In this document: piece by piece, positions 33,981 to 54,999 of the stretch | Position numbering within the stretch: position 1 is the first letter of the stretch | Layout: each line of letters starts with the position of its first letter | From: an uncultured Myxococcales bacterium | Lineage (GTDB): Bacteria; Myxococcota_A; UBA9042 | Length of the DNA stretch: 64,000 nt | Reading direction: 5' to 3' | Assembly: GCA_903955385.1 (NCBI GenBank) | Contig: CAJBNH010000131.1 | Location: forward strand, 1-64,000 | The notes under the pieces: generated by a model | What the model was told of the DNA's origin: nothing | The model's input: the letters and a program-made list of their open reading frames with translations, nothing else | Database searches by the model: none | Translations under genes and position numbers: made by a program

Positions 33981-34109
33981 CCTCGACCGCGATGTCGGGG
34001 CCGGACACGCCCTGCCGAAAACCCGCGGAAATCCGCTCGACGGCCGGGCCGCCGGGATCGTACCCTTTGCTGAAGGAAGCAATTGCCCGTGCGGGCTTGG
34101 AGAATCGCG

Positions 34110-36392
34110 ATGAAGCTCGACCTGGGTCGAATCTCTGTCGGACTGTCGGCTTTGACGCTGGCGCTGCTGTTGCCGTCGCTTTCCCAAGCGTCCATCCCGA
34201 ACACCGTGATCGTCGAGGGCGTGCTGCTCTCGTCGGGTGGCGGGCCGGTGGCAGACGGCGACTATGCCGTGACCTGGTCGCTGACCAAGGGCAAGGGCGG
34301 AGCGACGTTGTGGAGCGAGGGCCCGACAACCTCGTCAATCGCCGGCGGCCGATTCGTGCACGTGCTGGGCAGCGACAACGCGTTCACCCCGGCCGTGGTC
34401 GCCACCATCGTCGACCACACGAACACGCTGTGGCTCTCGTTCAAGATCGGCAGCGACCCGGCCCTGACACAGCCGTTGCACAGCGTGTTCTTCGCGATGC
34501 GCGCTGGGCTGGCCGAGGCGCTGTCGTGTTCGGGCTGCGTGACCGCCGCGCACATGAACGCCAAGTTCGTCGATGATCTTGTCGCCGGCGGCAGCCTGTC
34601 CAAGGTCGCCAAGTCGGGCGCGTTCGCCGACCTGTCGGGCGGCCCGGACCTCGGCGGCTATGCCCAGCTGTCCAAGCTGGCGACCGTCGCAACTTCGGGA
34701 GATTACGCAGACCTGTTGGGCCTGCCCGACTTGACCGCGTATGCCAAGGTCGTCGCGCTGGCGACCGTCGCCACCAGCAACAGCTACAAGGACCTGGACG
34801 ACCTGCCCGTGCTGGCCAAGCTGAACGACTCGTGCGGCACCGGTCTGGTCATCAAGGGCCTGAAGGCCGACGGCAGCTATGAATGCGTTGTGGCGATGGA
34901 TCCCAGCGCGCTGCCCAGCGACGGTCTGGACGAGATCTCGGGCGGTTTGCTGTTCAACCAGTTCCAGGAGGCCGCAGCCAGCACCAAGACCCCCATCGCC
35001 GTGCCGGACAACAACCCCGTGGGCATCAGCGACGTGATCGACCTGCCGGACTTCGGCCTGGCGCAGACGTTCAGCATCACGGCAGAGGTGACCAACAGCG
35101 ACACGGCCAACCTGAAAATTACCGCCATCGACCCCACGGGCACCAAGTTCGTGCTGTGGGACAAGACGGCCAAGGGCTCTGTCGTCAAGACCACTTGGCC
35201 TGCGCCGACCAAGACGGTGTCGGGCGACCTGTCGACCTGGATTGGCAAGAACCCCAAAGGAAAATGGTACTTGCAGGTCGTCGACACGGCGTTCCTGAAC
35301 AACGGCTTCGACGGCCAAATCAAGTCCTGGAGCATTCAGGCGCAAGTGCAGGCGTCGAACAAAGTGGGCGTGGGTGGCAGTCTGGTGCTGAAGAACGCCA
35401 CCGACCCGCCGCAAGCGTGCACTGCCGCGAATTCGGGTGCGATCTACTTCGACACCAAGGCCCAGGCGATCCGCTACTGCGCGGGCGGCGTGTGGCGCAA
35501 GATCGCGGACTCGTGCGGCAACGGCATCCTTGAGCCGACTGAAGAATGCGATGACGGCAACATCCTGGACGGCGACGGCTGCAGCACGACCTGCGTCGCC
35601 GCAATCGGCTATGGCAAGACGGTGCCGGGTGCCAGCTGTGCCGACATCCTCACCAAGGCCAAGGCGGCGAGCATCACCCCCAAGGACGGCCTGTTCTGGG
35701 TCGACTTGACGGGCGGCGACGTGGTCGACGCGTTCCAGGTGCACTGCGACATGACCCGCGACGGCGGCGGCTGGATGTTGGCGTTGCAGATCGCACCCAG
35801 CGGCAGCGTCGACGCAACACTCGGCTTCAACGCTGGCTACTGGACGAACGGGTCGCTGCTCAACCCCACGCTGCCGACGCTGTCGGACATCAACGCCGTC
35901 TACGCGACCTTCACCACCTACGCCTCCAGCGACGGCAAGGTCCTGATCGTCGACAAGAAGACCAGCAAGTTCACAACCTTGTCGGTTCCGACGCTGCAGG
36001 GCAAGTCGCTGCGCGATCGGTTCGCCACCTTGGGCAAGACCAACTTGACCGTCACCGCCGGCGAGCCCTCGCCGCAAGTGCTGATGGGCTTCCCCGCCGT
36101 GTCGGGCCTGTGCGGCTCGAACGCGCCGTGGATGATGAACATGCTCGTCAGTCACTCCGGTACGCGTCTGGGCAATGACGTCGCATCGAACACGCAGACG
36201 ACGAACAACGTCAGCACTTGGCCTTGCTACAACGGTGAGGCCAGCAACCTGTCGTACAGCGGCTTGGGCGGCACGCTCGAGTCCGGTCGGCAGTGGCAGG
36301 ACGGCTACGGCTCTGAGGCGCTGAACCGCTACCGCGACGTCGGCGGCAGCGGCGCGGGTTCGCACAACGGCGCGGCGCTGTTCGTACGCTAA
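34110..36392 (+). CDS. Secreted repeat/P-domain/DUF4215/fibrinogen-like surface protein B
   Basis: ATG at 34110 (GGAG upstream) starts a signal peptide ([11 protein letters not shown]), giving 760 residues. Architecture equals that of the preceding gene: shared N-domain with CSGCV; repeats, about 150-235; P-domain, about 300-425; DUF4215, about 465-497 ([16 protein letters not shown]); and a fibrinogen-like end ([19 protein letters not shown]). The two proteins are closely alike up to about residue 570 and then diverge strongly. The C-terminal 190 residues here have different cysteine and glycine patterns. This is a tandem duplication with a changed binding end. Confidence 0.9.
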
Positions 36393-37532: not shown

Positions 37533-39872
37533 CTATCCGCAAGGGCATCCGCACGGCCGCGGCTCAGTCACGCCGGGATGTGCCGCCAGCCGCGATGCCA
37601 CGTAGCGCCCCAGCAGACGCACTGCACGGTCGCTCGAGCGAAACACAGGTATCCCGCCCCGCTCGATGCAACGGACCAGCGGGTCGTACAGGGCGCCCGA
37701 GTCGACGACGACGACGATGGGTTTGTCGGTCGCCGCGGCCAGTTCCGGCAGGCCCAGGGCCAGACTGTCCGGCCAGGTCAGGCACTCTTGCGGGTCGTCC
37801 GAGACCTCGACCGTCGACATGGCGGGTGACAGCGGCACGATGCCCATCACCAGCGCGTCGATGCAGGGGTCGTCCAGCAGCGCCCGGGCACACTCCAGAT
37901 GCACAACGTCGGGTGCAACCGGCGTGACGTCGAGCGGATTGTGGATCGAGACCAGCGCGTCGATGCGGTGGCGGGCCAGCGAAACCCGCACCTTTTCGCG
38001 GGTATGGGCACAGATGCCGGCTGGGGCCAGACGACCGTCTTCGCCGCGCAGGGCGTCGGCCATGCCCACGGCCTCGTAGCCCGCGTTCGACATCATCATC
38101 ACGCGGTCGCCGCGGACGGTGCGCGAGGCAAAGTGGGCGGCGAGCTCGACCAGCCCCTCGAAGTCCTCGAACGTCTCGGCCACCAGAACACCGGCCGCGC
38201 GTGCCAGCTGCCAGGCCACCCGGTAATCGCCCGCGATGGAAGCCGTGTGGCCCGCCGTGGCGCCCTGGCCCTCGGGCGACCGACCACCTTTGTAGAGTAC
38301 GACCGTCTTGCCGCGCGAGATGGCCGACCGTGCCGCCGCCAGGAAACGCGCTCCGTCGCCCGCGGCAAATCCTTCGGCGTAGACGGCGATGACGTGCACG
38401 TCCGCGTCCTGCTGGAAGAATTCGACGTAGTCGCCCAGCGTCAGGTCCATCTGGTTGCCGACGCTGACCAGATAGCGGGCGCCGACCGTGCGGCTCTTGC
38501 TCAACCGACTGATGGCGAACGCACCGCTTTGGCTCACCCACGCGACGTTGCGCACGACGGCGTCGATGGCGGGCAACTTGCTCGCGGGGATGAAGGTGGT
38601 GTCGTAGTGACCCGGCACGCTCGCGATGCCCAGACTGTTGGGACCGCAAACGACGGGGCCTAGCCACGGGGTGTGGCGCGCTTCCTCGATGCTGTCGACA
38701 ACCCGCTGCTGCAGGGCCTTGCCGCCCTCTGTCTCGCCCATGCCGCCCGGAATCACGATGATCGACTCGGCCTTGCGCGTGGCCATCAGCTTCTCGAACA
38801 GCTCGGGCACCTGCGGCGCCGCCACCGCCAGCACCGCCAGATCCACCGCCTTGGGCAGGTCGGCGGGCTCGGCATAGCACTTCACGCCGTCGATCGACGC
38901 GTCGTCGGGCTTCAGCACGCTCAACCTGGACTTGTCCCAGCCGTCGCGCAGCAGGTTGCGCAGGATCACGCGCCCCATGTTCACGTTCTTGGACGACACG
39001 CCGGCGACCGCCACCGTCTTGGGCCTGAACATCTTGGCCAGCTTCTGCACGGGACGCGGCGAGGGAGCGGCCGTCGCCGTGGTCAGGCGCGCCAGTCCGT
39101 CGACGGGCACCAAGCGACCGGCCGGGTCGACCAGCACGGGATTTAGCTCCAGCTCTTCCAGGGCCACTTCGCCGCCGCCGGCCGTCACGGGCGGAAAGGC
39201 CTCGGCCGCCTCGCGCAGAAAGCGCACGACGGGATACCACGCCGACGCATCCAACAGCGCCGTGCTGCCTCGCAATTCTCCCGCCAGGTCGCGGTGGCCC
39301 AGCGTGCGCAGGATCTCGCGCACGGCGACCTCTTCGCAGCCCGCACCCAGGGCAAACAGCGCCGTCGACTCGCCGCGCGGCAGCCGGTCGGCCCACAGCT
39401 CGGCCTTGACGCCACCCAGACCGACCACGCCGACGAAGCCGAATTCCCGGCTCCACTTCATGCCCACCAACACCTCGGTGCCCAAGCGCGCGCGGTCGTA
39501 GACCACCCGGCGTGACAGCAGAACGCCGCGGATGTCAGGCCAGCCGCCGTGCTGGGCAGAGTAGCGCGCGGCCACTTCCCCAGCGAAGGCCTGCAGCCGC
39601 GGGCCGTCCAGGGTCGCGCCGTCCAGAAACTGGATGCCCCCCAACTCGGTCTTGTGCAGGATGTCGGGCGACACGATCTTGACGACGACCGGACCCTCGC
39701 GAAACGACGCAGGCACCACGAACCGGTCCGTGCTCGGCAGGAACACGTGGTCGGGAGGCTCCAGACCGGCCGGCGTCAGGGCAGCGTAGATCTCGTGCTC
39801 GAGCAGGACCTTGCGACCCTCGGCGTGGGCGGCGTGCAGGGCCTCGGTCAGCTTGGCGATGGGGGAGTTCAT
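37533..39872 (-). CDS. ADP-forming acyl-CoA synthetase (acetate--CoA ligase), fused
   Basis: ATG at 39872 with GGAGG upstream gives 779 residues. The ATP-grasp (beta-type) part comes first (about 1-240, VVKIVSPDILHKTELGGIQF). The CoA-binding domain starts near 305 (FRPKTVAVAGVSSKNVNMG), followed by succinyl-CoA-ligase-like domains with the phospho-His loop GATAGHTASIAGD (His near 542). The enzyme converts acyl-CoA + ADP + Pi to free acid + CoA + ATP. It lies 58 nt after iorB on the same strand, which suggests it uses aryl- or acyl-CoA made by IorAB. The C-terminal tail (PRPCGCPCG) is unusual. Confidence 0.93.
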   Translation of the reverse strand: MNSPIAKLTEALHAAHAEGRKVLLEHEIYAALTPAGLEPPDHVFLPSTDRFVVPASFREGPVVVKIVSPDILHKTELGGIQFLDGATLDGPRLQAFAGEVAARYSAQHGGWPDIRGVLLSRRVVYDRARLGTEVLVGMKWSREFGFVGVVGLGGVKAELWADRLPRGESTALFALGAGCEEVAVREILRTLGHRDLAGELRGSTALLDASAWYPVVRFLREAAEAFPPVTAGGGEVALEELELNPVLVDPAGRLVPVDGLARLTTATAAPSPRPVQKLAKMFRPKTVAVAGVSSKNVNMGRVILRNLLRDGWDKSRLSVLKPDDASIDGVKCYAEPADLPKAVDLAVLAVAAPQVPELFEKLMATRKAESIIVIPGGMGETEGGKALQQRVVDSIEEARHTPWLGPVVCGPNSLGIASVPGHYDTTFIPASKLPAIDAVVRNVAWVSQSGAFAISRLSKSRTVGARYLVSVGNQMDLTLGDYVEFFQQDADVHVIAVYAEGFAAGDGARFLAAARSAISRGKTVVLYKGGRSPEGQGATAGHTASIAGDYRVAWQLARAAGVLVAETFEDFEGLVELAAHFASRTVRGDRVMMMSNAGYEAVGMADALRGEDGRLAPAGICAHTREKVRVSLARHRIDALVSIHNPLDVTPVAPDVVHLECARALLDDPCIDALVMGIVPLSPAMSTVEVSDDPQECLTWPDSLALGLPELAAATDKPIVVVVDSGALYDPLVRCIERGGIPVFRSSDRAVRLLGRYVASRLAAHPGVTEPRPCGCPCG

Positions 39873-39930
39873 GCGGCCTCCTGGGGGGGCTTGGGACCGG
39901 TCACGGCGCGGGCGGCGGACCGGGGGGCGG

Positions 39931-40749
39931 TCACGCAGGTGTCGCGACGCGGGACAGGCAGGGCTCGGCGAGCTTCGACAACGCCGCGGCATCCAACGGC
40001 ATCGCCGCTGTGGCGCCGACCGCCTCATCGATCCGGGCGATGGCGTCGGGGCAGCTGGCGAGTGCCATGCAGGCGATCAGGACAGCTCCGTCCACAGGCT
40101 CCGGCCCGAGGTCCAGACGGGCGACGACGCGAGCGGCGTGCAGCGGCACGACCCCGGCATCCACCAGCCGGGCCAGCAGAGCGGCTGCCGTGCGCCCCAT
40201 GCGAAACGCGACCAGATTGGTATGGACGGTGGCCTCGCCCTTACGCGCGAACAGCTCGGCGATGTGGTGCTCGATGCGCTCGGGCTCCAGCGGCAGCAGC
40301 GCGGCGGCGGCCCCCAGCACGACCATGTTCTGGGCGCGGGGCGAGCCGGCTTTGCGGGCCAGTCGCGTGGCGTCCACGCCGATCACGCGGGGCAGCGAGT
40401 ACAGGGCCTCGTAAAGCCGGTCGGAGTCTGGGTAATTCTTCAGGTTCGCCACGGGCGTCAGGTCGGTGACGATCACGCCAGCGGGCGCCAGCCAGTTGAC
40501 GTACCGCAGCGCTTCCAGCGGCTCGACCGACAGGATCGCTTCTGCCGCGCCGTCCGGCGGCAGGTCGCACGCGATCTCGCCGTCGGACATCCGCACGAAC
40601 GCGTGCACCGCGCCGCCGCGCTGCGACATGCCGTGGACCTCGGGTTGCTTGACCTGAAAGCCCGCCGCCACGGCCGCCTGGTCGACCACCGCCGCGATCG
40701 ACAGAATCCCCTGACCGCCCACCCCGCACAGGACCAGATCGCGCTTCAT
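39931..40749 (-). CDS. iorB: Indolepyruvate ferredoxin oxidoreductase, beta subunit
   Basis: 272 residues. The gamma-type domain of 2-oxoacid:ferredoxin oxidoreductases starts at the N-terminus with LVLCGVGGQGILSIAAVVDQAA and continues with EVHGMSQRGGAVHAFVRMSD, both diagnostic of IorB. Together with IorA it should oxidise aryl pyruvates (from Trp, Phe, Tyr) to aryl-acetyl-CoA with ferredoxin as acceptor. A C-terminal helical extension of about 80 residues (LARLVDAGVVPLHAARVVARL...) is present in some homologues. The ATG overlaps the iorA stop in ATGA. Confidence 0.93.
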   Translation of the reverse strand: MKRDLVLCGVGGQGILSIAAVVDQAAVAAGFQVKQPEVHGMSQRGGAVHAFVRMSDGEIACDLPPDGAAEAILSVEPLEALRYVNWLAPAGVIVTDLTPVANLKNYPDSDRLYEALYSLPRVIGVDATRLARKAGSPRAQNMVVLGAAAALLPLEPERIEHHIAELFARKGEATVHTNLVAFRMGRTAAALLARLVDAGVVPLHAARVVARLDLGPEPVDGAVLIACMALASCPDAIARIDEAVGATAAMPLDAAALSKLAEPCLSRVATPA

Positions 40750-42407
40750 GGCTTGCCCTCCAGGTTCGCGACCATCCCGGGCAGACCCTGGTGACGTCGA
40801 TTCTCCTTGATCTGCTTGGCATACGTGACGCAGGCGCGGCTTGCCACGATGACCGACAGGCCCCGGTGCGCCACTTCCTGCCGCAGCAGGGCCACGTTCT
40901 GCTCGTGCGCCTTGGGCAGCGGCGACAGCACGTGGATGTGGTCGGGGTTCGCGCCCAAGCCCTTGACCAGCTTGACGATCTTGTCGGTCTCGCCCACCAG
41001 CGTCTCTTGCCCGCCCGTCATGGCGACGATGCTGTTGTCCAGGATCATCACCGTCATGTCGGTGTCTTCGCGAATCGCGTCGAGCAGCGGCGGCAGGCCC
41101 GAGTGGGTAAACGTCGAGTCGCCCAACACGCACACCACCGGCCACAGCCCGGCGTGCACCACGCCCGACGCCATGCCGATGCTCGCGCCCATGCAGACGC
41201 ACGACTGGATGCCATTGTGCGGAGCGTAGTAACCCAGCGTATAGCAACCGATATCGCCCATCACCCGTGATCCGGGGTGCTCGGCCATCACCTCGTTCAG
41301 GAAGCGGTAGCTGTCGGTGTGCGGGCAACCTTCGCACAGCACCGGGGCCCGCGGCTGCATCACGTTCGCCACGGCAGCCGGCACGTGAACCTTGGCGGCC
41401 AGCGGCAATCCGAAAGCGCGCTTGACCTTGTCGGCGTTCAACTCGCCCGCGCGCGGCACCAGACCCGACAGGCGGCCATACACCGGCACCGAGGGGTCGC
41501 GACCGATGCCGACCAGCAGGCGCTCGATCAGCGGATAGCCCTCCTCGAACACATACAGCGCGCTGGACGACGCCACCAGCGACCGCAAACTCGCTTCAGG
41601 AATCGGATACGCACCGATGTGCAACAGGTTGTAGTCGTTCAGCTTCTCTGCCAGCGCCGCCTTCACGTAGCCGATCGCGATGCCGCTCGCCACGATGCCC
41701 GGCCGGCCCTGACCCGTGACGGTCAGTTGGTTGGCGGGGTGCGCCTGGCTCCACGCCTGAAAGTCGACCTGGTGCGCCAGCAGCTCGTCGAAGGCCTTGC
41801 GCGCGTTCGAGGGCAGCAGCGTCCACTTCCACGATTCGTCAGTAAACTTCGCCACGTTCTGCGCGCGGCGGGGGCGGGGCGTGACGACGGCGCGGCTGTG
41901 GGCCAGACGCGTGGTCAGGCGCAGCATCACGGGCATCTTCAGCCGTTCGGACACGTCGAAGGCGTCGACGGCCATCTCGTACGCCTCTTGCTGGCTCGAC
42001 GGCTCCAGGCAGGGCACGTTGGCAAAGTCGGCGTAGAACCTCGAGTCCTGCTCGTTCTGCGAGCTATGCATCGACGGGTCGTCCGCCACGGCGATGACAA
42101 GCCCACCGTGCGCCCCGGTCAGGGCCGAGTTCAGGAACGGGTCGGCGGCGACGTTCAAGCCCACGTGCTTGAACGACACCAGCGCCCGGCGGCCGGCATA
42201 CGACATGCCCAACGCCTCTTCCAGCGCGACCTTCTCGTTGGCGGACCAGCGGGCGTGCAGGTGCAGGCCGTCCCTGCGGTCCAACTCGAGGATGGTCTCG
42301 AAGATTTCCGTCGACGGCGTGCCGGGATACGCATAGGCAGCGCTGATACCGGCGTCGACTGCGCCGCGCGCCACCGCTTCGGCGCCGAGCAGGATGTCGT
42401 GGTTCAT
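40746..42407 (-). CDS. iorA: Indolepyruvate ferredoxin oxidoreductase, alpha subunit, lacking the ferredoxin domain
   Basis: 553 residues. The pyrimidine-binding domain opens the protein (LGAEAVARGAVDAGISAAYAYPGTPSTE; KHVGLNVAADPF). Then come VLCEGCPHTDSY and the TPP-binding domain with GDIGCYTLG, VLGDSTFTHSG and DNSIVAMTGGQ, all canonical. IorA normally continues with a C-terminal domain carrying two [4Fe-4S] CxxCxxC clusters. Here the protein ends soon after VIVASRACVTY, with no such cysteines, so electrons must leave by another route or a separate ferredoxin. The start at 42407 has AGGGAG upstream. First gene of iorA-iorB-acyl-CoA synthetase. Confidence 0.93.
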   Translation of the reverse strand: MNHDILLGAEAVARGAVDAGISAAYAYPGTPSTEIFETILELDRRDGLHLHARWSANEKVALEEALGMSYAGRRALVSFKHVGLNVAADPFLNSALTGAHGGLVIAVADDPSMHSSQNEQDSRFYADFANVPCLEPSSQQEAYEMAVDAFDVSERLKMPVMLRLTTRLAHSRAVVTPRPRRAQNVAKFTDESWKWTLLPSNARKAFDELLAHQVDFQAWSQAHPANQLTVTGQGRPGIVASGIAIGYVKAALAEKLNDYNLLHIGAYPIPEASLRSLVASSSALYVFEEGYPLIERLLVGIGRDPSVPVYGRLSGLVPRAGELNADKVKRAFGLPLAAKVHVPAAVANVMQPRAPVLCEGCPHTDSYRFLNEVMAEHPGSRVMGDIGCYTLGYYAPHNGIQSCVCMGASIGMASGVVHAGLWPVVCVLGDSTFTHSGLPPLLDAIREDTDMTVMILDNSIVAMTGGQETLVGETDKIVKLVKGLGANPDHIHVLSPLPKAHEQNVALLRQEVAHRGLSVIVASRACVTYAKQIKENRRHQGLPGMVANLEGKP

Positions 42408-42713
42408 GGAACTCCCTGGGGCGCCCTGCGCGCGGTCGCGATGGACCGCCCGGGCATCGGAAGTGGGGGTGTGCGCGCCGACGGGACCTGGGGGAAAGCC
42501 CCGGGCGCAAGCGCCCATCCGGCTGCGATCGGCGCGCTGCAAGCCTACGCTGCCGCACCGGTCGTGACAAGGCGCAGCCCCTTGCACGCACTCGTCTTGC
42601 GACGTCTGCCGTTGCACGAAAGGCCGCGCAAGTGCTTCAATCCGGCCCCGGCGCCAACCCACTACCGACCGCTGAATTCTCCTCCCCCTCGCGTCCACTT
42701 CAGGAGCCTTGCG
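42408..42713. other. Divergent intergenic region with tandem hairpins, 306 bp
   Basis: This region should hold promoters for the iorA operon (minus) and the permease (plus). GGGGAAAGCCCC (42491-42502) and GGGCGCAAGCGCCC (42503-42516) are two adjacent perfect hairpins in what would be the iorA leader, about 85-110 nt before its start. No U-tract follows, so an attenuator is only possible. No gene is supported. Confidence 0.5.
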
Positions 42714-44150
42714 ATGCCCACCCGCTCCCCGCTCGTCGCCCCAATCGTCGGCACGGTTGGCGTCGCCTTGGCGCTGACCCTGATGTGGTGGCTGTCCGGC
42801 GTGTTCGTGCCGCTGGGGCTGGGGTTGCTGGTGGCGTTTCTGGTCGCTCCCGCCGTCGAGCGGCTGCAGCGTCTGGTCCGCAGCCGGTCGGTCGCCGCCG
42901 CCGTGATCCTGGTGGGGGCGTTTGCTGCGGCGGCCATCGGCGTCACCGCCTCGATTCCCGTTCTGGTGGGCGAGGCTCGGCACCTGCGCCACGCCATCAC
43001 CGGCGAGACCGTCCGAGGCATCCGTCTGGGCACCGAGACCATCGACTACCGCGACTGGGCGGACCCGGACGGCATCGGCTGGGACAAGGCCGCGCTGCTG
43101 ACCCAAGCCAAGGACCGGCAAGCCCCCAAGGGCGTGCTGCTGCTGCTGGGCGCACTGCCCGCGCCGGACAAGGACGACCCGGAGCAGACGCTGGCCGACG
43201 CGCTGGGCGACCTGGACGGCGACGGCCGCATCGACCCCGGCTACGTCAAGCGAATCCGGGTGTGGGCCGCAGACCGCTCCAGCTGGCTGGGCAACGCGTG
43301 GCACAGTCTGGATCGCTCAGGTGTCGTGCGCGAGGCCGAGCGCGCTTGGCGCAAGTCGATGTCACGGGACCAGATTCGCAAGATCCTCAGCGGTTCCGAG
43401 ACATTGTCAACGGCAAGCGACTACGGCTGGCGCCTGCTCGAGTCGCTGGGCGACCTGTTCTCGACGGCCTTCAGCGTCGCCTTGGGCGTGGTGCTGGTGC
43501 CCGTCTACGCCTTCTTCTTCCTGTCCGCGATGCCGCGGTGGCGCGAACGACTGCCCGAGTACCTGCCCTTGCGGCACCGTGAGAAAGGGCTGCGGATCCT
43601 GCGCAAGATCCTGCGCGTCATCGCGGGGTTCGTGCGCGGGCGGTTGGTGGTGTGCTCGATCGTGGGTCTGGTCACCGCAATTGGCTGGGCGGCCATGGAC
43701 GTGCGGGCGGGCTTTCTGTTCGGTCTGCTGGTCGGACTGCTGACCGTCATCCCGTTTGCCAACGTGCTGGCCTTCGTGCCCGTCGTGCTGGTGGCGCTGC
43801 TGGACTTTGGCGCCGGCTTGCACGGCGTGGGCTGGCTGGTCGGCGTCGTGGCGGTCTATGTGCTCGGGCAGGCGCTCGAGTCGGTGCTGAACCCGATCAT
43901 CGTGGGCGATGCGGTGCAGATCGATGTGGTGACGCTGATCGTCGCCCTGCTGATCGGCGGCTCGCTGGCGGGCTTCTTCGGCCTGCTGGTCGCCGTGCCG
44001 GTCGCAGCCACACTGCGGATCCTCGCGGACGAACTGGCTTTGCCGGCCTGGCGGGCCTGGGCGGCAGACGGGGCGGTGGCGGTCGAAGTCACGCCGGACG
44101 CAGCCCCCGCAGAACACTTGCCTGAGTCGCCGGAAGGGCCCTCTGCGTGA
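42714..44150 (+). CDS. AI-2E family transporter with EF-hand-like insertion
   Basis: ATG at 42714 (CAGGAG upstream) gives 478 residues. It has two N-terminal helices (about 8-48), a helix near 62-82, and a C-terminal block of helices (about 245-450) with the PerM/AI-2E motifs VLVPVYAFFFLSAMP, VIAGFVRGRLVV and LTVIPFANVLAFVP. The central soluble region (about 95-235) is larger than usual and contains DLDGDGRIDPGY near 160-171. This fits the EF-hand/dockerin calcium-loop pattern DxDxDGxI but has Tyr at position 12. Such permeases export signals or act as ion antiporters. The next gene starts close by or overlaps by 4 nt. Confidence 0.9.
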   Translation: MPTRSPLVAPIVGTVGVALALTLMWWLSGVFVPLGLGLLVAFLVAPAVERLQRLVRSRSVAAAVILVGAFAAAAIGVTASIPVLVGEARHLRHAITGETVRGIRLGTETIDYRDWADPDGIGWDKAALLTQAKDRQAPKGVLLLLGALPAPDKDDPEQTLADALGDLDGDGRIDPGYVKRIRVWAADRSSWLGNAWHSLDRSGVVREAERAWRKSMSRDQIRKILSGSETLSTASDYGWRLLESLGDLFSTAFSVALGVVLVPVYAFFFLSAMPRWRERLPEYLPLRHREKGLRILRKILRVIAGFVRGRLVVCSIVGLVTAIGWAAMDVRAGFLFGLLVGLLTVIPFANVLAFVPVVLVALLDFGAGLHGVGWLVGVVAVYVLGQALESVLNPIIVGDAVQIDVVTLIVALLIGGSLAGFFGLLVAVPVAATLRILADELALPAWRAWAADGAVAVEVTPDAAPAEHLPESPEGPSA

Positions 44151-44185
44151 CGCCCTCCGGTCCCCCTATTTCTCACAAGGTATTC

Positions 44186-45706
44186 ATGCACTTTCGCACC
44201 CTCTGCACCTCGCCGCTGGCCGTTCTGGTGGACGACTTCGCCAGCCCTGACGAGCTGGCCGCCCTGCGCCGTTGGTTCGACGACCCCGCCTTGCGCACCA
44301 CGGCGGTGGAAGGCGAACACCACAACGAGACCGGCTTTGCCTTCGAGCTGCCCGTCGCCGCCGACCCGGTGGCGCGCGCGCTGACCGACCGGATCGAGGC
44401 TCTGGTCGGCTTTCCCGACGCACTGAACCCGGTCGACGGCGGCACACTGCGGATGCGCCGGTACCACCCCGGCGAGCACCACCCACGCCACGACGACGCC
44501 TACGACATCGCCGAGCTGCGGCTGTGCGTGACGGCGCTGCTGGTGCTCGATGCGCCCGAGGCGGGGGGCGAGACGCTGTTCCCCGACGCCTCGCCCGGCC
44601 CGCTGCGCCTGCAACCCAAGCCCGGGCGGCTGTACCTGTGGCGCAACACGACCGAAGACGGCGAACCCTGGCCGGCGGCCGAGCACTTGGCGTTGCCCGT
44701 GGTGCAGGGTCTGAAGACGACGGCCACGCGCTTTCTCTACGCACCCATCACAACCCCGCTGCCCGCTTGGGAGTTTCCGCTGGCTGCGGCGACCGAGCGG
44801 CGCGATGCCCACTTGGCGACGCCGGCAGACCGGGGCACGCCGCTGCGCGGGTTGGGGCGTCGGCTGGTGGTGGTCGACGACGGCGTGCCGGCCGAGACGG
44901 TGCTGGCCCTGCGCGACGCCGCAGACCTTCGGGGCTTGGCGTGCGTGGTCGTCGACGCCGCCCGCTTCGACTTTGCCGAGCACCGCCGCACCCGCCCGGG
45001 CGACCTGCTCTACCGGCCCGCTGTCAGTCAGACCGCCTCGCGCGTCGAGCAGTTCTTGTGGTCACCCGGCGTAGCCGACCTGTACGCGCGGCCGATGGGC
45101 GTGTTCTTCGACCCCAACAACGCCTCGATGCTGTTCGACCGCGTGGGGTTGCCGGTGGCGCGCACGTATTGGCCCACCAAAGAGACGTTGCACCTACTGG
45201 ACCGCTGGGTCGCCGACCTGGGGGGGCTGCCCGTCGTCGTCAAGATCCTGGGCTTTTCCGGCGGCCAAGGGGTGATTCGCGTGGACTCATTGGTCACGCT
45301 GCGGTCGCTGCTGGGAGCGTTTCTGGCGCAAGGCAACGCGCCGTTGGTGTGCGCGTACGTGCCAGACGCGGTGCACTGGCGGGTGTTCGTCGTGGGCGAG
45401 CGTGCAGTGGGTGGCTATCGCAATGTGCCGGATCAAGGGGACTTTCGCACGTCGGCTAGTGACGACCCCAACGATTACCGGGCCGAGCTGCCGATCGAGG
45501 CGTGCGAGATTGCCGTTCGGGCGACCCGTGCGCTGGAATTCGAGCTGGCGGGCGTGGACGTGCTGCAGCATCCCAGCGGGCGGTTCTATCTGCTCGAGGC
45601 GAACTTTCCCTGCTATTTCGGGCATGCGCAGGAGAATGGGCAGGACATCGCGGGGGCGATCGTCGACCACCTCTTGGACAAGAGCTTGCGAGGGTGTCAG
45701 GACTAG
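44186..45706 (+). CDS. Fusion of 2OG-Fe(II) prolyl-4-hydroxylase-type oxygenase and ATP-grasp ligase
   Basis: 506 residues from ATG 44186 (AAGG upstream). GTG at 44147, overlapping the permease stop in GTGA, would add 13 residues. N-terminal part (about 1-185): P4H-type dioxygenase with RMRRYHPGEHHPRHDDAYD (Fe ligands His and Asp), GGETLFPDAS, PGRLYLWRNT, a distal AEH as third ligand, and GLKTTATRF with a 2OG-binding Lys. C-terminal part (about 215-500): RimK-like ATP-grasp with FDPNNASMLFDRVGLPVART, VVVKILGFSGGQGV, RVFVVGERAVGGYR, GVDVLQ and LEANFP (metal-binding Asp, Glu, Asn). Both active sites look intact. The substrate is unknown; such pairs modify peptides or amino acids. The last codons lie in the left arm of the 45693-45838 element. 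Confidence 0.88.
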   Translation: MHFRTLCTSPLAVLVDDFASPDELAALRRWFDDPALRTTAVEGEHHNETGFAFELPVAADPVARALTDRIEALVGFPDALNPVDGGTLRMRRYHPGEHHPRHDDAYDIAELRLCVTALLVLDAPEAGGETLFPDASPGPLRLQPKPGRLYLWRNTTEDGEPWPAAEHLALPVVQGLKTTATRFLYAPITTPLPAWEFPLAAATERRDAHLATPADRGTPLRGLGRRLVVVDDGVPAETVLALRDAADLRGLACVVVDAARFDFAEHRRTRPGDLLYRPAVSQTASRVEQFLWSPGVADLYARPMGVFFDPNNASMLFDRVGLPVARTYWPTKETLHLLDRWVADLGGLPVVVKILGFSGGQGVIRVDSLVTLRSLLGAFLAQGNAPLVCAYVPDAVHWRVFVVGERAVGGYRNVPDQGDFRTSASDDPNDYRAELPIEACEIAVRATRALEFELAGVDVLQHPSGRFYLLEANFPCYFGHAQENGQDIAGAIVDHLLDKSLRGCQD

Positions 45707-48860: not shown

Positions 48861-50159
48861 CTAGGCTTGGGCTTGCGCCTGCTGCTGCTTCTTCTGCATT
48901 TCGCTCGCCTTCTTCTTCGCCTGCTGCGACAACTGCTTCTCTCGCAGAGCCACGTCCTTTTCCGCGCGCTTGGCCAACGCCTCGCTGGTGCCGCGGTCCA
49001 GTTCGCGCTTCAACGTCTGGCGAACGGACTGCTTGCAGTTCTGCTCCTCCAGGCGGCGCTTGAGTTCCAGCGGCGCGGTCGCCCACTCGAAGGCCCCCGT
49101 GAGCTGCCGGCTGTCCAGGGCGTCGCCGCTCGACTGCAGCTTCTTGGTGGCCTCTTCGACCCGACCCGAGAAATACGCGATCTTCTCCTTGCCGGCGGTA
49201 TCGTCGAACAGCGGCGTCATCATCTTCTTCTGGTTCATCTCTTCGGCCATGCGGTCCTTCTTCCGGGCTGCCTCGAGCGCGGGATAGACCTTCTTGGCAT
49301 AGAGGACCGATTCCATCTGCATCTTCTTGTGCTGCTTCTCCGACGCCCCCACCCTCTCGGGGTACGTCATCGCCTTTTCGGTCTCCTCCTTGGCTCCCTC
49401 GCGCTTGTCGAACGTCTTGCACGCTTGCTCGTCGTGGGCGGCCAGCGAGTCCTTGCGCTTGGCCTCGGACCCGCGCTGCTTGGCCTCCTGCTCGCGGAAG
49501 CGGCGCGACGAGTCGGCGATGCGGGTGTAGACGTCGCCTTCGCGTCCCAACGGCCCCGAGTCTCCCAATGCCGCCGCAGCCGTGTACTCCAGGTAGCCGT
49601 CAGCGGCCGCCTCCAGCAGCAGGCTCGCGTGGGCGTCGGCCAGGTCTGCCAGCTGCTCGGTCGCGTTCTTCAGCTCCAGCGCCGCGGCATCGCCCGTGTC
49701 GATCGAGGCTTCCAGCGCGCCGAACTCGAGCTTGGACGCGATCCGCAGCAAGTCCGCAGGGTCCTGACCGGCCAGCAGGTCCGAAGGCAGCGCAAGACCC
49801 AGACCCAGAGCGTTGGGCTCGTAGCACATGGCGGGCAAGGGATCCTGGTCCGCGGGCTTGGCCTGCGCCACACGGGGCAGCGCGGCGCCGGCGGCCAGCA
49901 CGGCCGAGGCCCCCATCAGGCCGCCCAGCAAACCACGGCGAGACACCCCGGTCGGCGGCGCGACGCGGGCGGTCAGCATCCCGGCGTCGGCAAGCGCGTC
50001 CAGACGGTCCAGCAGCGTCGGGCGGTCCATGACCAGCGCCCCGGACAGGGCGGTCAGGTCGTGGTGCCCATCACAGAGGGACACCAGCGCGGCATCCGCG
50101 GCGGCGAGGCGCCCGGAAGTGGCGGCGGCAAGGGCGGAAGGCGTTGCAGTCGGTTTCAT
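48861..50159 (-). CDS. Protein with HTH-like N-terminus, internal Tat signal and coiled-coil tail
   Basis: ATG at 50159 gives 432 residues. Residues about 15-65 (LVSLCDGHHDLTALSGALVMDRPTLLDRLDALADAGML) look like a small winged-helix domain. Only then comes a twin-arginine-type signal SRRGLLGGLMGASAVLAAGA ending at VAQA (about residues 74-100). The mature part is helical. After about 250 it is strongly Lys/Glu/Gln-rich with coiled-coil character and ends KKKASEMQKKQQQAQAQA. An N-terminal domain ahead of a Tat signal is unusual, although similar leaders occur in Myxococcota proteins. The export route and function are unproven. Confidence 0.75.
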   Translation of the reverse strand: MKPTATPSALAAATSGRLAAADAALVSLCDGHHDLTALSGALVMDRPTLLDRLDALADAGMLTARVAPPTGVSRRGLLGGLMGASAVLAAGAALPRVAQAKPADQDPLPAMCYEPNALGLGLALPSDLLAGQDPADLLRIASKLEFGALEASIDTGDAAALELKNATEQLADLADAHASLLLEAAADGYLEYTAAAALGDSGPLGREGDVYTRIADSSRRFREQEAKQRGSEAKRKDSLAAHDEQACKTFDKREGAKEETEKAMTYPERVGASEKQHKKMQMESVLYAKKVYPALEAARKKDRMAEEMNQKKMMTPLFDDTAGKEKIAYFSGRVEEATKKLQSSGDALDSRQLTGAFEWATAPLELKRRLEEQNCKQSVRQTLKRELDRGTSEALAKRAEKDVALREKQLSQQAKKKASEMQKKQQQAQAQA

Positions 50160-51488: not shown

Positions 51489-52630
51489 CCCGTCCCGACG
51501 TCGCCCGAGCTGACGTGACCGACGCCGCCGCGCGCGCTTTTGCCGAGACGTGGGGCGTACTTCCCGAAGCCGTCGGGGTCGCGCCAGCCCGCGCCAACCT
51601 GCTGGGAGAGCACACGGACTACAACGACGGCTTCGTGCTGCCGACGCCGCTGGGTCTGTGGACGGCGGTGGCGGTGGGTCGGGCCGAGCGCGACGGCGGA
51701 ATCGAGGCGCTGGCCTGCCGACTCGGCGAGAAAAAGTCGCGTGCGTACGGCGAGTTGCGACAGGGCGACTGGCTGGACTACGTGGCGGGCTGTGCCGCGG
51801 CCTTGCAGGCGCGCGGGGTCGAGCTGCCGGGGCTGCGGCTGGCAATCGACAGTCAAGTGCCCATCGGTGCAGGGATTTCCAGCTCGGCGGCGCTAGAGGT
51901 CGCCACCCTGCGGGCCCTGCGCTCGCTGCTGGACCTGCCACTGGGCGACGAGACGCTGGCCCGCACCGCACAAGAGGCCGAGCGCGGCTATGCCGGGATG
52001 CCGTGCGGGATCATGGACCAGATGGTGTGCGCGCTGGGGACGCCGGGCGAGGCGCTGTTCCTCGACACCCGCACGCTGGGCCGCCAGCTGCTGCCGCTGC
52101 CGCAGGGCGCCACGTTTGCGGTCGTGCACTGCGGTGTGCCGCACAAGCTGACCGACGGCGGCTATCGCCAGCGGCGCGCGGAGTGCGAGAAGGCGGCGGA
52201 GTTGTTGGGCGTTCGAGCGCTGCGCGACGTGGGCGTCGATGAACTGAACCGACTGGACGCCTTGCCAGAGCCGCTGCGGAGCCGCGCGCGGCACGTGGTG
52301 ACGGAAAACGAGCGGGTCGAGCGCGCGGTCGAGGACCTGCGCTCAGGGGACGTGAAGGCTTTTGGCCGACGGATGGTGGAGAGCCACCGGTCGCAGCGCG
52401 ACGACTTCCGGGTCTCGATCGACGAGATCGACACCTTGGTCGAGGCGGCGCTTGCCTGTGGGGCTTGGGGCGCGCGGCTGACCGGCGGCGGCTTCGGCGG
52501 CTCGATGGTGGCGCTCGTGGCGACAGAAACCTTGGATGACTGGTGGCAGCGCGTGTCGGCCCTGGTGCCGCGCGCGAAGTGGCTGGGACGCGCCGACGCG
52601 CGGCCGGCCGAGATCGAGGTGAACCGATGA
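51485..52630 (+). CDS. galK: Galactokinase
   Basis: 381 residues. GHMP-kinase motifs are complete: the galactokinase signature APARANLLGEHTDYNDGFVLP (about 31-51), the ATP-binding PIGAGISSSAALEVA (about 122-136), and the C-terminal LTGGGFGGSMVALV. It phosphorylates galactose at C1, supplying GalT. It is coupled by ATGA overlaps to galT upstream and to the GH5 gene downstream, so all three are likely made from one message. Confidence 0.95.
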   Translation: MTRPDVARADVTDAAARAFAETWGVLPEAVGVAPARANLLGEHTDYNDGFVLPTPLGLWTAVAVGRAERDGGIEALACRLGEKKSRAYGELRQGDWLDYVAGCAAALQARGVELPGLRLAIDSQVPIGAGISSSAALEVATLRALRSLLDLPLGDETLARTAQEAERGYAGMPCGIMDQMVCALGTPGEALFLDTRTLGRQLLPLPQGATFAVVHCGVPHKLTDGGYRQRRAECEKAAELLGVRALRDVGVDELNRLDALPEPLRSRARHVVTENERVERAVEDLRSGDVKAFGRRMVESHRSQRDDFRVSIDEIDTLVEAALACGAWGARLTGGGFGGSMVALVATETLDDWWQRVSALVPRAKWLGRADARPAEIEVNR

Positions 52631-54999
52631 ACAACAACTTCCGCAATCGCAACAGGGCCTTGCTGGCTCTGGCGGCCACGCTGCTGCTGCTGCCGACGTG
52701 TCAGGGCGAGCCGCCGAACGACGCGCCGCTGCCGCCGTCCAAGGTGACGACCGACCGCGATTACCTGCGCGACGCGCACGGCCGCTACCTGTTTGTGCAT
52801 GGCATCAACGTGTCGGGCAGCACCAAGGTGCCGGCGTCGATCGACGGCAAGCCGTTGACGATCGCTGACTTGAGCGTGCCGAACACCAAGGGCGTGCCCA
52901 GCTACGTCGGCAAGCCGTTTCCCGCGGGCGAGCTGGACGCCGAGATGCGCAAGCTGCAGAGCGCCGGCTTCAACGTGATCCGCCTGCTGGTGAACTGGGA
53001 GGGGCTGGAGCCTGTGCGCAAGGGCGTGTACGACCAGGACTATCTGAAGTCGATCCGCGCCACCGTCGAGTCGGCGAACCGCCACGGCATGTACGTGCTG
53101 CTCGACATGCACCAGGACATGTTCAGCCGCCATCTGGTCGTGCGCTACAACGAGAAGCCGTCGTTCACCGACCCCAAGACTGGGCTGAAGGTCGAGCCGG
53201 CCAAGGGCTCGCTCGAGAACACGATCCTGTCGCTGGTGCCGCCGTACACCGACGCGGTGCGGGGCGAGGGAGCGCCGCGCTGGGTGGTCGAGGCGTGCCT
53301 GCAAGAGAAGAACCTGGACGCACCGACGTGGGGAACGCCGCGCATCCTCTCGGGTCTGGATGCGGTGGGCTTGTCGCGGATCTGGGAGCTGTACCAGAAG
53401 CTGCTGGGCAAGGAAGCCGGCCCGGCGGCGCTGGAGCCCTGGGTCGTGTACCTGCTGACCCACCTGCCCGGCCAGTTTCCCGTGACGGACACCAGCGACG
53501 TGCTGCCGTTTACCAACTGGGGCGTGGCCGCGTCGCTGTCGCTGGACGTCGAGCGCTGCTTCGGCTGCCTGCTGGCGGGCGACGTGGCTTTTCCCGGGCT
53601 GACGGTCGACGAGTGTCAGGACGTGCCGTTGCCCGCCGACCCGTCCGCGTGCCAGGCCAAGCAGACGGTGACGGTGCAGACCCACCTGCAGGACGCGTTT
53701 GCCGACGCATGGGTCGAAGTTGCCAAGCAGGTCAAGGACTTGCCCAACGTCATCGGCTATGACCTGATCAATGAGCCGATCGGCAATTTCCTGGTGCTGA
53801 CGGCAGTCGGCGGCCTGTTGCAGACAGGGACGCTGGACGGCGCGCAGCAAACGCTGGTGGCGTTGCTGGGCAAGGAAAACGGCGAGCTGGTGTTCGACGT
53901 GCTGAACAGCCTGCGTCTGCTGCCGCCGATCCCGCCCAAGCCCACCGACCCTGCGCTGGTCGACGCGTGGCAGGCACAGAAGCAGGCAACCCTGCACGAG
54001 TGGGGTCTGGACAAGCTGGACCTGCTGGCCATCGCCGGGCTGAACGTCGGCTTTGACCGCAACCACCTCAAGCCGTTCTACGAGAAGGTGGGCAAGGCGA
54101 TCCTGACGGTGGATCCGCAAGCGGTGTTCTTCCTGGAACCCACGATGAACATCTCGGCGCTGCTGGGCGGCAAGCTCGGCAGCATGTGGGACCAGTCGAT
54201 GAACCGCCCCGACGGCTTGGAGCGGGTCGTGTGGGCGCCGCACTACTACGCCGATATCTATCCGTTCCTGGGCTTCAACGCGGCGTCGCGGGTGTTCACG
54301 GCAGACGAAGTGCAGTACCGCAACTACCAGCCATTCCTGGAAGGGGTGGCCGAGCTGGCGACATTTGCGCTGGGCAACGCCCCGGTGGTGTTCGGCGAGT
54401 TCGGCACCTACTTCAACTTTGGCGGGATCGAGGCCTCGGTCGCGCAGAACTACCTGATCTCCGAGCACATCCTGGACAACTACTTCGAGGCCTTCGAGCG
54501 CATGTTCGAAAACCACATGCTGTGGTGCTACACGCCCGACAACGACAAGCAGTATGGCGACTTGTGGAACAAGGAAGACTTCTCGATCCAAGGCTTCGAC
54601 GGCAAATTCCGCGGCGCCCGCGCGTGGGCGCGCCCGTACGCGAAGGCCATGGCCGGCAAGCCGATCTCGACGCACTTCTGGTCACCCCTGCACTACTTCG
54701 ACCCCAAGAAGGGCACGCCGAATCCGCAGCGCGAGTTCGAGGTGACCTACGAGTCGAAGGAGACCGACGCGCCCACCGAGATCTTCGTGCCGACGCTGCA
54801 GTACCCCGACGGCTTCCATGTCTGGCTGTCCGACGGCCGCGCTTGGTACGACCCCGAGACGCAGACGCTGTCGCACCTGCCCGCTGCCGACCAACCCGAC
54901 GCCGTGCACTCGGTGCGGATCTTGCCGCCGCTGCCCGACCGCGAGGCGACCGGCTGGCAGTACTTCTTCCGCGACCACCTTGTGCTGACCGGCGACTGA
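52627..54999 (+). CDS. GH5-family glycosidase lipoprotein, endoglycoceramidase-like
   Basis: 790 residues; ATG overlaps the galK stop (ATGA). The lipoprotein signal ends LLLLPTC. The catalytic (beta/alpha)8 domain shows FVHGINVSGSTKV, GFNVIRLLVNWEGLEP, VLLDMHQDMFSR, the acid/base Glu in YDLINEP (about 382) and the nucleophile Glu in FGEFGTY (about 590). Order and the DMHQD motif match the endoglycoceramidase-related GH5 group. A large insertion (about 195-370) and a C-terminal beta domain (about 690-790) are present. It likely cleaves a glycolipid or other galactose-containing glycoconjugate outside the cell, feeding galT/galK. The actual substrate is not proven. Confidence 0.88.
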   Translation: MNNNFRNRNRALLALAATLLLLPTCQGEPPNDAPLPPSKVTTDRDYLRDAHGRYLFVHGINVSGSTKVPASIDGKPLTIADLSVPNTKGVPSYVGKPFPAGELDAEMRKLQSAGFNVIRLLVNWEGLEPVRKGVYDQDYLKSIRATVESANRHGMYVLLDMHQDMFSRHLVVRYNEKPSFTDPKTGLKVEPAKGSLENTILSLVPPYTDAVRGEGAPRWVVEACLQEKNLDAPTWGTPRILSGLDAVGLSRIWELYQKLLGKEAGPAALEPWVVYLLTHLPGQFPVTDTSDVLPFTNWGVAASLSLDVERCFGCLLAGDVAFPGLTVDECQDVPLPADPSACQAKQTVTVQTHLQDAFADAWVEVAKQVKDLPNVIGYDLINEPIGNFLVLTAVGGLLQTGTLDGAQQTLVALLGKENGELVFDVLNSLRLLPPIPPKPTDPALVDAWQAQKQATLHEWGLDKLDLLAIAGLNVGFDRNHLKPFYEKVGKAILTVDPQAVFFLEPTMNISALLGGKLGSMWDQSMNRPDGLERVVWAPHYYADIYPFLGFNAASRVFTADEVQYRNYQPFLEGVAELATFALGNAPVVFGEFGTYFNFGGIEASVAQNYLISEHILDNYFEAFERMFENHMLWCYTPDNDKQYGDLWNKEDFSIQGFDGKFRGARAWARPYAKAMAGKPISTHFWSPLHYFDPKKGTPNPQREFEVTYESKETDAPTEIFVPTLQYPDGFHVWLSDGRAWYDPETQTLSHLPAADQPDAVHSVRILPPLPDREATGWQYFFRDHLVLTGD

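Follow-up and report, generated by a model that had tools for sequence, protein, structure and literature searches.

The locus examined here lies in a stretch of 64,000 nucleotides from an uncultured Myxococcales bacterium, referred to below as the window. Positions 44147 to 45706 of its plus strand form a single uninterrupted open reading frame that encodes a two-domain enzyme. The ATG at 44186 agrees better with the start of the closest relative than the GTG at 44147, and it is the likely start because this relative (L001) begins at about the same position. The features of the gene are as follows.

44186-45706, plus strand: fused 2OG-Fe(II) oxygenase / ATP-grasp ligase gene, 506 amino acids from the ATG or 519 from the GTG at 44147
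44186-44830, plus strand: oxygenase half, 2OG-FeII_Oxy_3 by Pfam domain and conserved residues
Codons 44489, 44495 and 44684, plus strand: oxygenase metal ligands H102, D104 and H167
Codon 44714, plus strand: K177 of the oxygenase half, probably binding 2OG
44861-45703, plus strand: ATP-grasp half with the RimK/graspetide-synthetase fold
Codons 45242, 45254, 45380 and 45557, plus strand: ATP-grasp residue K353, the FSGGQGV glycine loop, R399 and D458
Codons 45596 and 45602, plus strand: E471 and N473 of the ATP-grasp half

An initial annotation had described this gene as an oxygenase joined to an ATP-grasp ligase and had named catalytic residues for both halves. Pfam matches above the gathering cut-offs bear out the two domains, with 6.3e-14 for RimK (PF08443) and 1.4e-06 (29.6 bits against a cut-off of 27) for 2OG-FeII_Oxy_3 (PF13640), and every residue named is present and conserved among relatives. 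The metal-binding HxD...H residues H102, D104 and H167 are unchanged across nine relatives; K177 is mostly kept, with Arg in some. Across 20 relatives the ligase half keeps the VVVK Lys, the HWR Arg and both Glu and Asn of LEAN without change, and the GVD Asp almost without exception. Structure prediction, proposed in the annotation as a check, gave an AlphaFold2 model (19-row alignment, mean pLDDT 88.8, pTM 0.75) in which the oxygenase and ligase halves are both folded. Foldseek comparison of the ligase half returned RimK, LysX/ArgX, Ddl and the graspetide synthetase PsnB. The best of these fold matches are RimK-like glutamate ligases and not only graspetide synthetases, which weighs against the cross-linking role proposed below. 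Joining of both domains in one chain, as annotated, also holds: fused homologues occur in Myxococcota and Hydrogenedentota, with identities over the full length from 65% (L001) down to about 39%, and since full-length fused homologues are found in other genomes the fusion is no assembly artefact.

The 4-nt overlap with an AI-2E-type permease gene that had been reported for this locus exists if translation starts at GTG 44147, but not with ATG 44186. The idea that enzyme and permease are coupled had to be abandoned, as no other family locus has a homologue of the permease. Several other genes of the window deserve mention in their own right. Positions 37533-42539 encode indolepyruvate ferredoxin oxidoreductase-like subunits (POR_N/TPP and POR) beside an ADP-forming acyl-CoA synthetase-like gene, a pathway of the aryl-acid type with no relation to the fused enzyme. 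A tandem pair of paralogous secreted proteins of about 765 amino acids that resemble each other closely over long stretches lies at 31692-36392, and a GH5 glycosidase with a GH5 C-terminal domain at 52627-54996.

A family profile was built from the ligase half and run on 284 genomes of the window's phylum. Full-length members scored 265-445 bits and generic RimK-like proteins at most 112 bits; by sequence, the ligase family is a clade distinct from the latter. It is mostly myxococcotal and rare elsewhere, with members in 4 of 198 Planctomycetota genomes, and in the samples from Acidobacteriota, Pseudomonadota and the phylum of L005 the one starting genome of each was the only one with members. 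The window genome has a single family ligase. Among the 38 family genes placed in a maximum-likelihood tree, 17 are fused to the oxygenase and 3 have it split from the ligase. Oxygenase and ligase are separate genes in L005 and L009, where the stop of the former overlaps the start of the latter by 4 nt, and in L099 (Acidobacteriota) oxygenase, precursor and ligase are three adjacent genes. Many relatives, including those of Nannocystis and Planctomycetota, possess the ligase without the family oxygenase, and a search of the whole ligase-only genomes of Nannocystis, Planctomycetota and Myxococcaceae for a separate copy gave unrelated oxygenases or none. The fused state requires eight changes on the tree, at least five of which are forced by well-supported branches. 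The oxygenase is thus a dispensable accessory that is fused, split or absent across the tree. Separate and unlinked halves in homologues had been put forward as grounds for rejecting a joint function. This applies in part to the oxygenase, which is split or absent in relatives, but where the family oxygenase is not fused it is still linked to the ligase.

The annotation had suggested looking for a short precursor peptide nearby. What the locus contains is a different kind of candidate substrate that had been overlooked, a repeat protein typically of 230-460 amino acids in which a Glu is followed four residues later by a Lys (ExxxK). Its features in the window are the following.

48861-50159, minus strand: predicted precursor (substrate) protein, about 432 amino acids from Met 50159, in a reading frame open to 50252
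49947-50159, minus strand: PqqD-like RiPP recognition element (RRE), the N-terminal domain of the precursor, assigned by profile matches
49860-49943, minus strand: twin-arginine signal SRRGLLGGLMGASAVLAAGAALPRVAQA, predicted cleavage of which would leave the RRE domain behind
48888-49493, minus strand: helical core region with 12 E-x-x-x-K motifs

The 12 core motifs are EQEAK, EAKRK, EQACK, EETEK, EKQHK and EAARK, followed by EMNQK, EEATK, EATKK, EQNCK, EALAK and EMQKK. The precursor gene lies 3.2 kb downstream of the enzyme gene on the opposite strand, which counts against a functional connection of the kind proposed here; L001, the closest relative, has its homologue of the precursor gene immediately after the enzyme gene. 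The N-terminal domain of the window precursor is found in no other protein of the window genome (next match E 0.013). The RRE of the window precursor is short and has no Pfam match alone, with a score of 58 bits against the family profile. Used as a profile, the N-terminal domain matches PqqD and lasso peptide RREs in the PDB (3g2b at E 3.8e-4, 5sxy and others), and 13 of 19 single sequences match PF05402. A structure search with the precursor gave generic winged-helix matches alone, none with a significant E-value. All RRE-bearing precursors that were read, except that of L003, have the twin-arginine motif, hydrophobic stretch and AxA sequence of Tat substrates, from which export by this route is predicted. 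The tail that follows is predicted to consist of long helices. In the Planctomycetota loci L006, L008 and L014 and in the myxococcotal L067/L068 the RRE and twin-arginine parts are missing and the motif is kept; these ExxxK proteins (L067:5092-5439, L068:4890-5408 and those of L006, L008 and L014) are encoded directly upstream of the ligase gene and have neither RRE nor Tat signal, which speaks against the model given below. The precursor of L007 ends in a PEP-CTERM-like signal (PF07589, 20.6 bits against a cut-off of 20.7), and a similar sorting signal is recognizable by eye at the end of the L099 precursor. These ends suggest surface anchoring. Both loci belong to one Acidobacteriota genome with two copies of the system (L099:1474-3558 and L007:5962-7631).

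An ExxxK protein lies beside or near the ligase gene, usually adjacent to it, at 31 of 34 family loci, the count being taken over distinct loci with assessable flanks. Left out were L015, L020, L021, L064 and L069, situated at contig ends, and L066 with its broken frame, in which the RRE and twin-arginine parts are still visible. No ExxxK neighbour was present at three family loci (L018/L061, L019 and L071), which weighs against the proposal; the substrate of the L018, L019, L061 and L071 ligases may lie elsewhere or use another motif. At 20 control loci of generic RimK-like ligases, drawn from one search together with the family loci, no ExxxK partner was present (0/20, best z 2.0), and L137, a locus found after the hypothesis had been formed, has the predicted partner. 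Ligase and ExxxK protein are the constant pair, and therefore the ligase would carry out the core reaction while the oxygenase, where present, would decorate the product.

The strength and selectivity of the motif were quantified over 24 non-redundant tails (4753 residues), with expected counts obtained by shuffling. Glu with Lys at +4 occurred 275 times against 65.3 expected (z 26.6), which ranks at the top of 4800 residue-pair/spacing tests. The reverse order K-E +4 was near chance (82 vs 65 expected), D-K +4 was not enriched (24 vs 28), and E-R +4 was depleted (24 vs 45). The spacing K-D +4, corresponding to the KxxxD motif discussed below, was not enriched either (30 vs 28). Ordinary E/K-rich proteins of the same loci served as background; in these E-K +4 and E-R +4 were favoured equally (1.57-fold and 1.49-fold), as expected of helix salt bridges, whereas in the tails the values were 4.25-fold and 0.53-fold. 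In several tails every Lys is part of an ExxxK, while in many others roughly half of the Lys residues fall outside the motif, which counts against Glu-Lys bonding as the purpose of the repeats. In alignments of related precursors the two motif residues were kept jointly in 454 of 586 cases and lost jointly in 89. The odds ratio for co-retention was 92 at +4 and 0.2-1.6 at other spacings; as the sequences are related, these counts do not represent independent events, but the other spacings share this relatedness and form the control. Conservation of Glu and Lys was 80% and 79% inside the motifs, against 38% and 28% outside. That Asp does not stand in for Glu, nor Arg for Lys, is indicative of a covalent reaction involving both side chains.

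A precedent for such chemistry is the corallotide pathway of Corallococcus, graspetide group 15, with the genes CorA/CorB/CorC/CorD (Carter et al. 2026, PMC13097080), so that a pathway of this kind, of which the annotation knew no fused example, is now known for separate ligase and oxygenase enzymes. According to that paper, the ATP-grasp enzyme CorB forms an isopeptide between Lys(i) and Asp(i+4), after which the 2OG enzyme CorC hydroxylates that Lys at C5 to give a 5-hydroxyisopeptide; CorB depends on CorC and the two form a complex (PMC13097080). The systems resemble each other in their myxobacterial setting, in a large precursor with repeated i,i+4 motifs of Lys and an acid, and in the pairing of an ATP-grasp ligase with a 2OG-Fe(II) oxygenase of PF13640, present as a complex in corallotide biosynthesis as described. 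In contrast, the corallotide motif is KxxxD and that of the tails is ExxxK, with reversed order and Glu in place of Asp, and the corallotide enzymes are separate where those of the window are fused. The window precursor has an RRE and a Tat signal, whereas CorA has neither in the published description or as read here, and the described corallotide cluster includes a beta-lactamase homologue, CorD. A cor cluster was found in related, Corallococcus-like genomes and compared by profile. CorB and CorC gave no HMM match to the window families, and hhalign gave 63% for CorB, a weak value, and 1.4% for CorC; CorB is at best weakly alignable with the window ligase and CorC is not alignable with the window oxygenase. 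Membership of group 15 is ruled out by this comparison and by the lack of KxxxD enrichment. By analogy, the window system would nevertheless work like corallotide biosynthesis. Part of the family may fall in one of the groups 34, 35 and 41 of the same paper, which have long repetitive precursors (PMC13097080). Another genome contains a corallotide cluster of its own, with a CorA homologue at L128:3387-4727 that carries KIIAD, KIVAD and VKVMMDDP repeats.

Comparison with other graspetides, such as microviridin and plesiocin (PsnB), reveals the same use of an ATP-grasp enzyme, donor and acceptor side chains and repeated cores in one chain, and PsnB is among the fold matches of the ligase half. 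Most known graspetide precursors are short leader-bearing peptides, whereas here the precursor is a protein of 115-460 amino acids, typically 230-460, that in most cases starts with a PqqD-like domain of its own followed by a Tat signal and has 4-23 repeats at a spacing of one helical turn. The window ligase scores 25.8 bits with the graspetide-synthetase model TIGR04187, the cut-off of which (350) does not define the class because Corallococcus-type CorB genes themselves score about 85-95. Myxococcaceae relatives (96 genomes, the family of G288) contain up to eight TIGR04187-like ATP-grasp genes each, often in tandem and all scoring under the curated cut-off; they form a store of graspetide-like systems still to be explored. 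The glutamate and amino-group ligases RimK, LysX and ArgX share fold and ATP-grasp residues with the window ligase, but the latter belongs to a separate clade and its partner protein differs from theirs; with RimK proper (TIGR00768) it scores 58.2 bits, below the cut-off of 143.4. The GAK system (TIGR04356) and glutathione synthetase were also considered and rejected, as they gave weak matches below cut-off only. The N-terminal domain of the precursor belongs by profile to the PqqD/RRE group, members of which are described as stand-alone proteins or as domains of enzyme fusions (PMC12710340). In the present system, in contrast, the RRE is part of the substrate. We know of no described case of such a location.

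In view of the above, we consider it likely that the locus represents a new family of graspetide-type RiPP systems, in which helices are stapled by Glu(i)-Lys(i+4) lactams and the oxygenase probably hydroxylates a cross-linked residue. An ATP-grasp enzyme with a precursor that has conserved and repeated donor and acceptor residues, the combination that characterizes graspetides, is present at the level of sequence. The annotation had guessed at hydroxylation of a peptide and ligation driven by ATP, serving a natural product or the cell envelope, and this agrees with the proposal, in which the chemistry is predicted. The RRE of the precursor would first guide binding to the enzyme, the simplest guess being that it binds a strand of the enzyme. 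Acting in the cytoplasm, the ligase half would then phosphorylate the side chain of the Glu in every motif, and attack by the Lys four residues further on would give an isopeptide (lactam) across one helix turn. Subsequently the oxygenase half of the same chain would probably hydroxylate a cross-linked residue, which by analogy with corallotide could be Lys at C5. The stapled protein would be exported in folded form via the Tat route, with cleavage of the signal separating the RRE domain from the exported cross-linked protein. The fuller version, stapling at the scale of a whole protein with up to about 20 helix turns, a substrate-borne RRE that stays in the cell and an optional oxygenase, appears to us somewhat more probable than not. 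Size, predicted export and PEP-CTERM anchors suggest that the product is an envelope or matrix protein.

Other explanations of the pairing should be considered. The ligase could act as a RimK-like tagging enzyme that attaches free amino acids such as Glu to Glu or Lys side chains of the repeat protein, with ExxxK as a recognition motif and an oxygenase that acts independently. RimK is the top match by both structure and sequence, and proteins are substrates of RimK-family enzymes. However, for tagging a single acceptor would suffice, whereas here Glu and Lys are both needed, at one spacing and in one direction, Asp and Arg do not substitute, and the inheritance of Glu and Lys as a pair fits two reaction partners. 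We therefore regard tagging as unlikely. If instead ExxxK were the salt-bridge pattern of a single alpha-helix or coiled coil, the target of the enzyme would lie elsewhere in the protein or be a different substrate altogether. The stabilization of helices by E(i)-K(i+4) pairs, the 1.6-fold preference in E/K-rich background proteins and the predicted helicity of the tail all agree with such a pattern. Yet salt bridges normally tolerate Arg, as the ordinary proteins demonstrate, and the tails avoid it; their enrichment far exceeds that of the background and is confined to +4; and the motif adjoins this ligase family, not the 20 other RimK-like ligases. The depletion of Arg and the background control disfavour a plain salt-bridge helix, to which we assign a very small probability.

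Bonding of Glu and Lys between chains, rather than within a helix turn, would produce a cross-linked fibre or matrix. The precursors are large repeat proteins with predicted export, two from Acidobacteria carry PEP-CTERM anchors, and corallotide is described as aggregating (PMC13097080). However, bonds between chains would explain neither the constant i,i+4 spacing nor the joint inheritance of the two residues, and an ATP-dependent enzyme that works in the cytoplasm, ahead of Tat export, is more readily reconciled with bonds inside one chain. Inter-chain cross-linking seems to us the most improbable of these options, and lactam formation within the helix is preferred.

The literature searched contained no paper on a 2OG/ATP-grasp fusion, nor one on the combination of ATP-grasp, PqqD and twin-arginine elements, older surveys of ATP-grasp amidoligases in subscription journals being outside the scope of both searches. 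As far as this literature extends, four features are new within the graspetide RiPPs: the ExxxK connectivity repeated along a helical precursor of protein size, the oxygenase-ligase fusion, the RRE on the precursor, and a Tat signal between this RRE and the core. Equally undescribed there are a recognition domain borne by the substrate and the predicted loss of the leader at the moment of Tat export. Chemists routinely stiffen designed peptides with lactam staples between a Glu and a Lys separated by one helix turn, and the proposed product would be the natural counterpart. Since members from Nannocystis are culturable, the system is directly testable. Since the kinds of enzyme linked by the fusion also work as a complex in an unrelated family, ligase and oxygenase seem to have been paired on more than one occasion. 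If the proposal is true, an enzyme family that staples whole proteins would represent both a new protein modification and a new tool.
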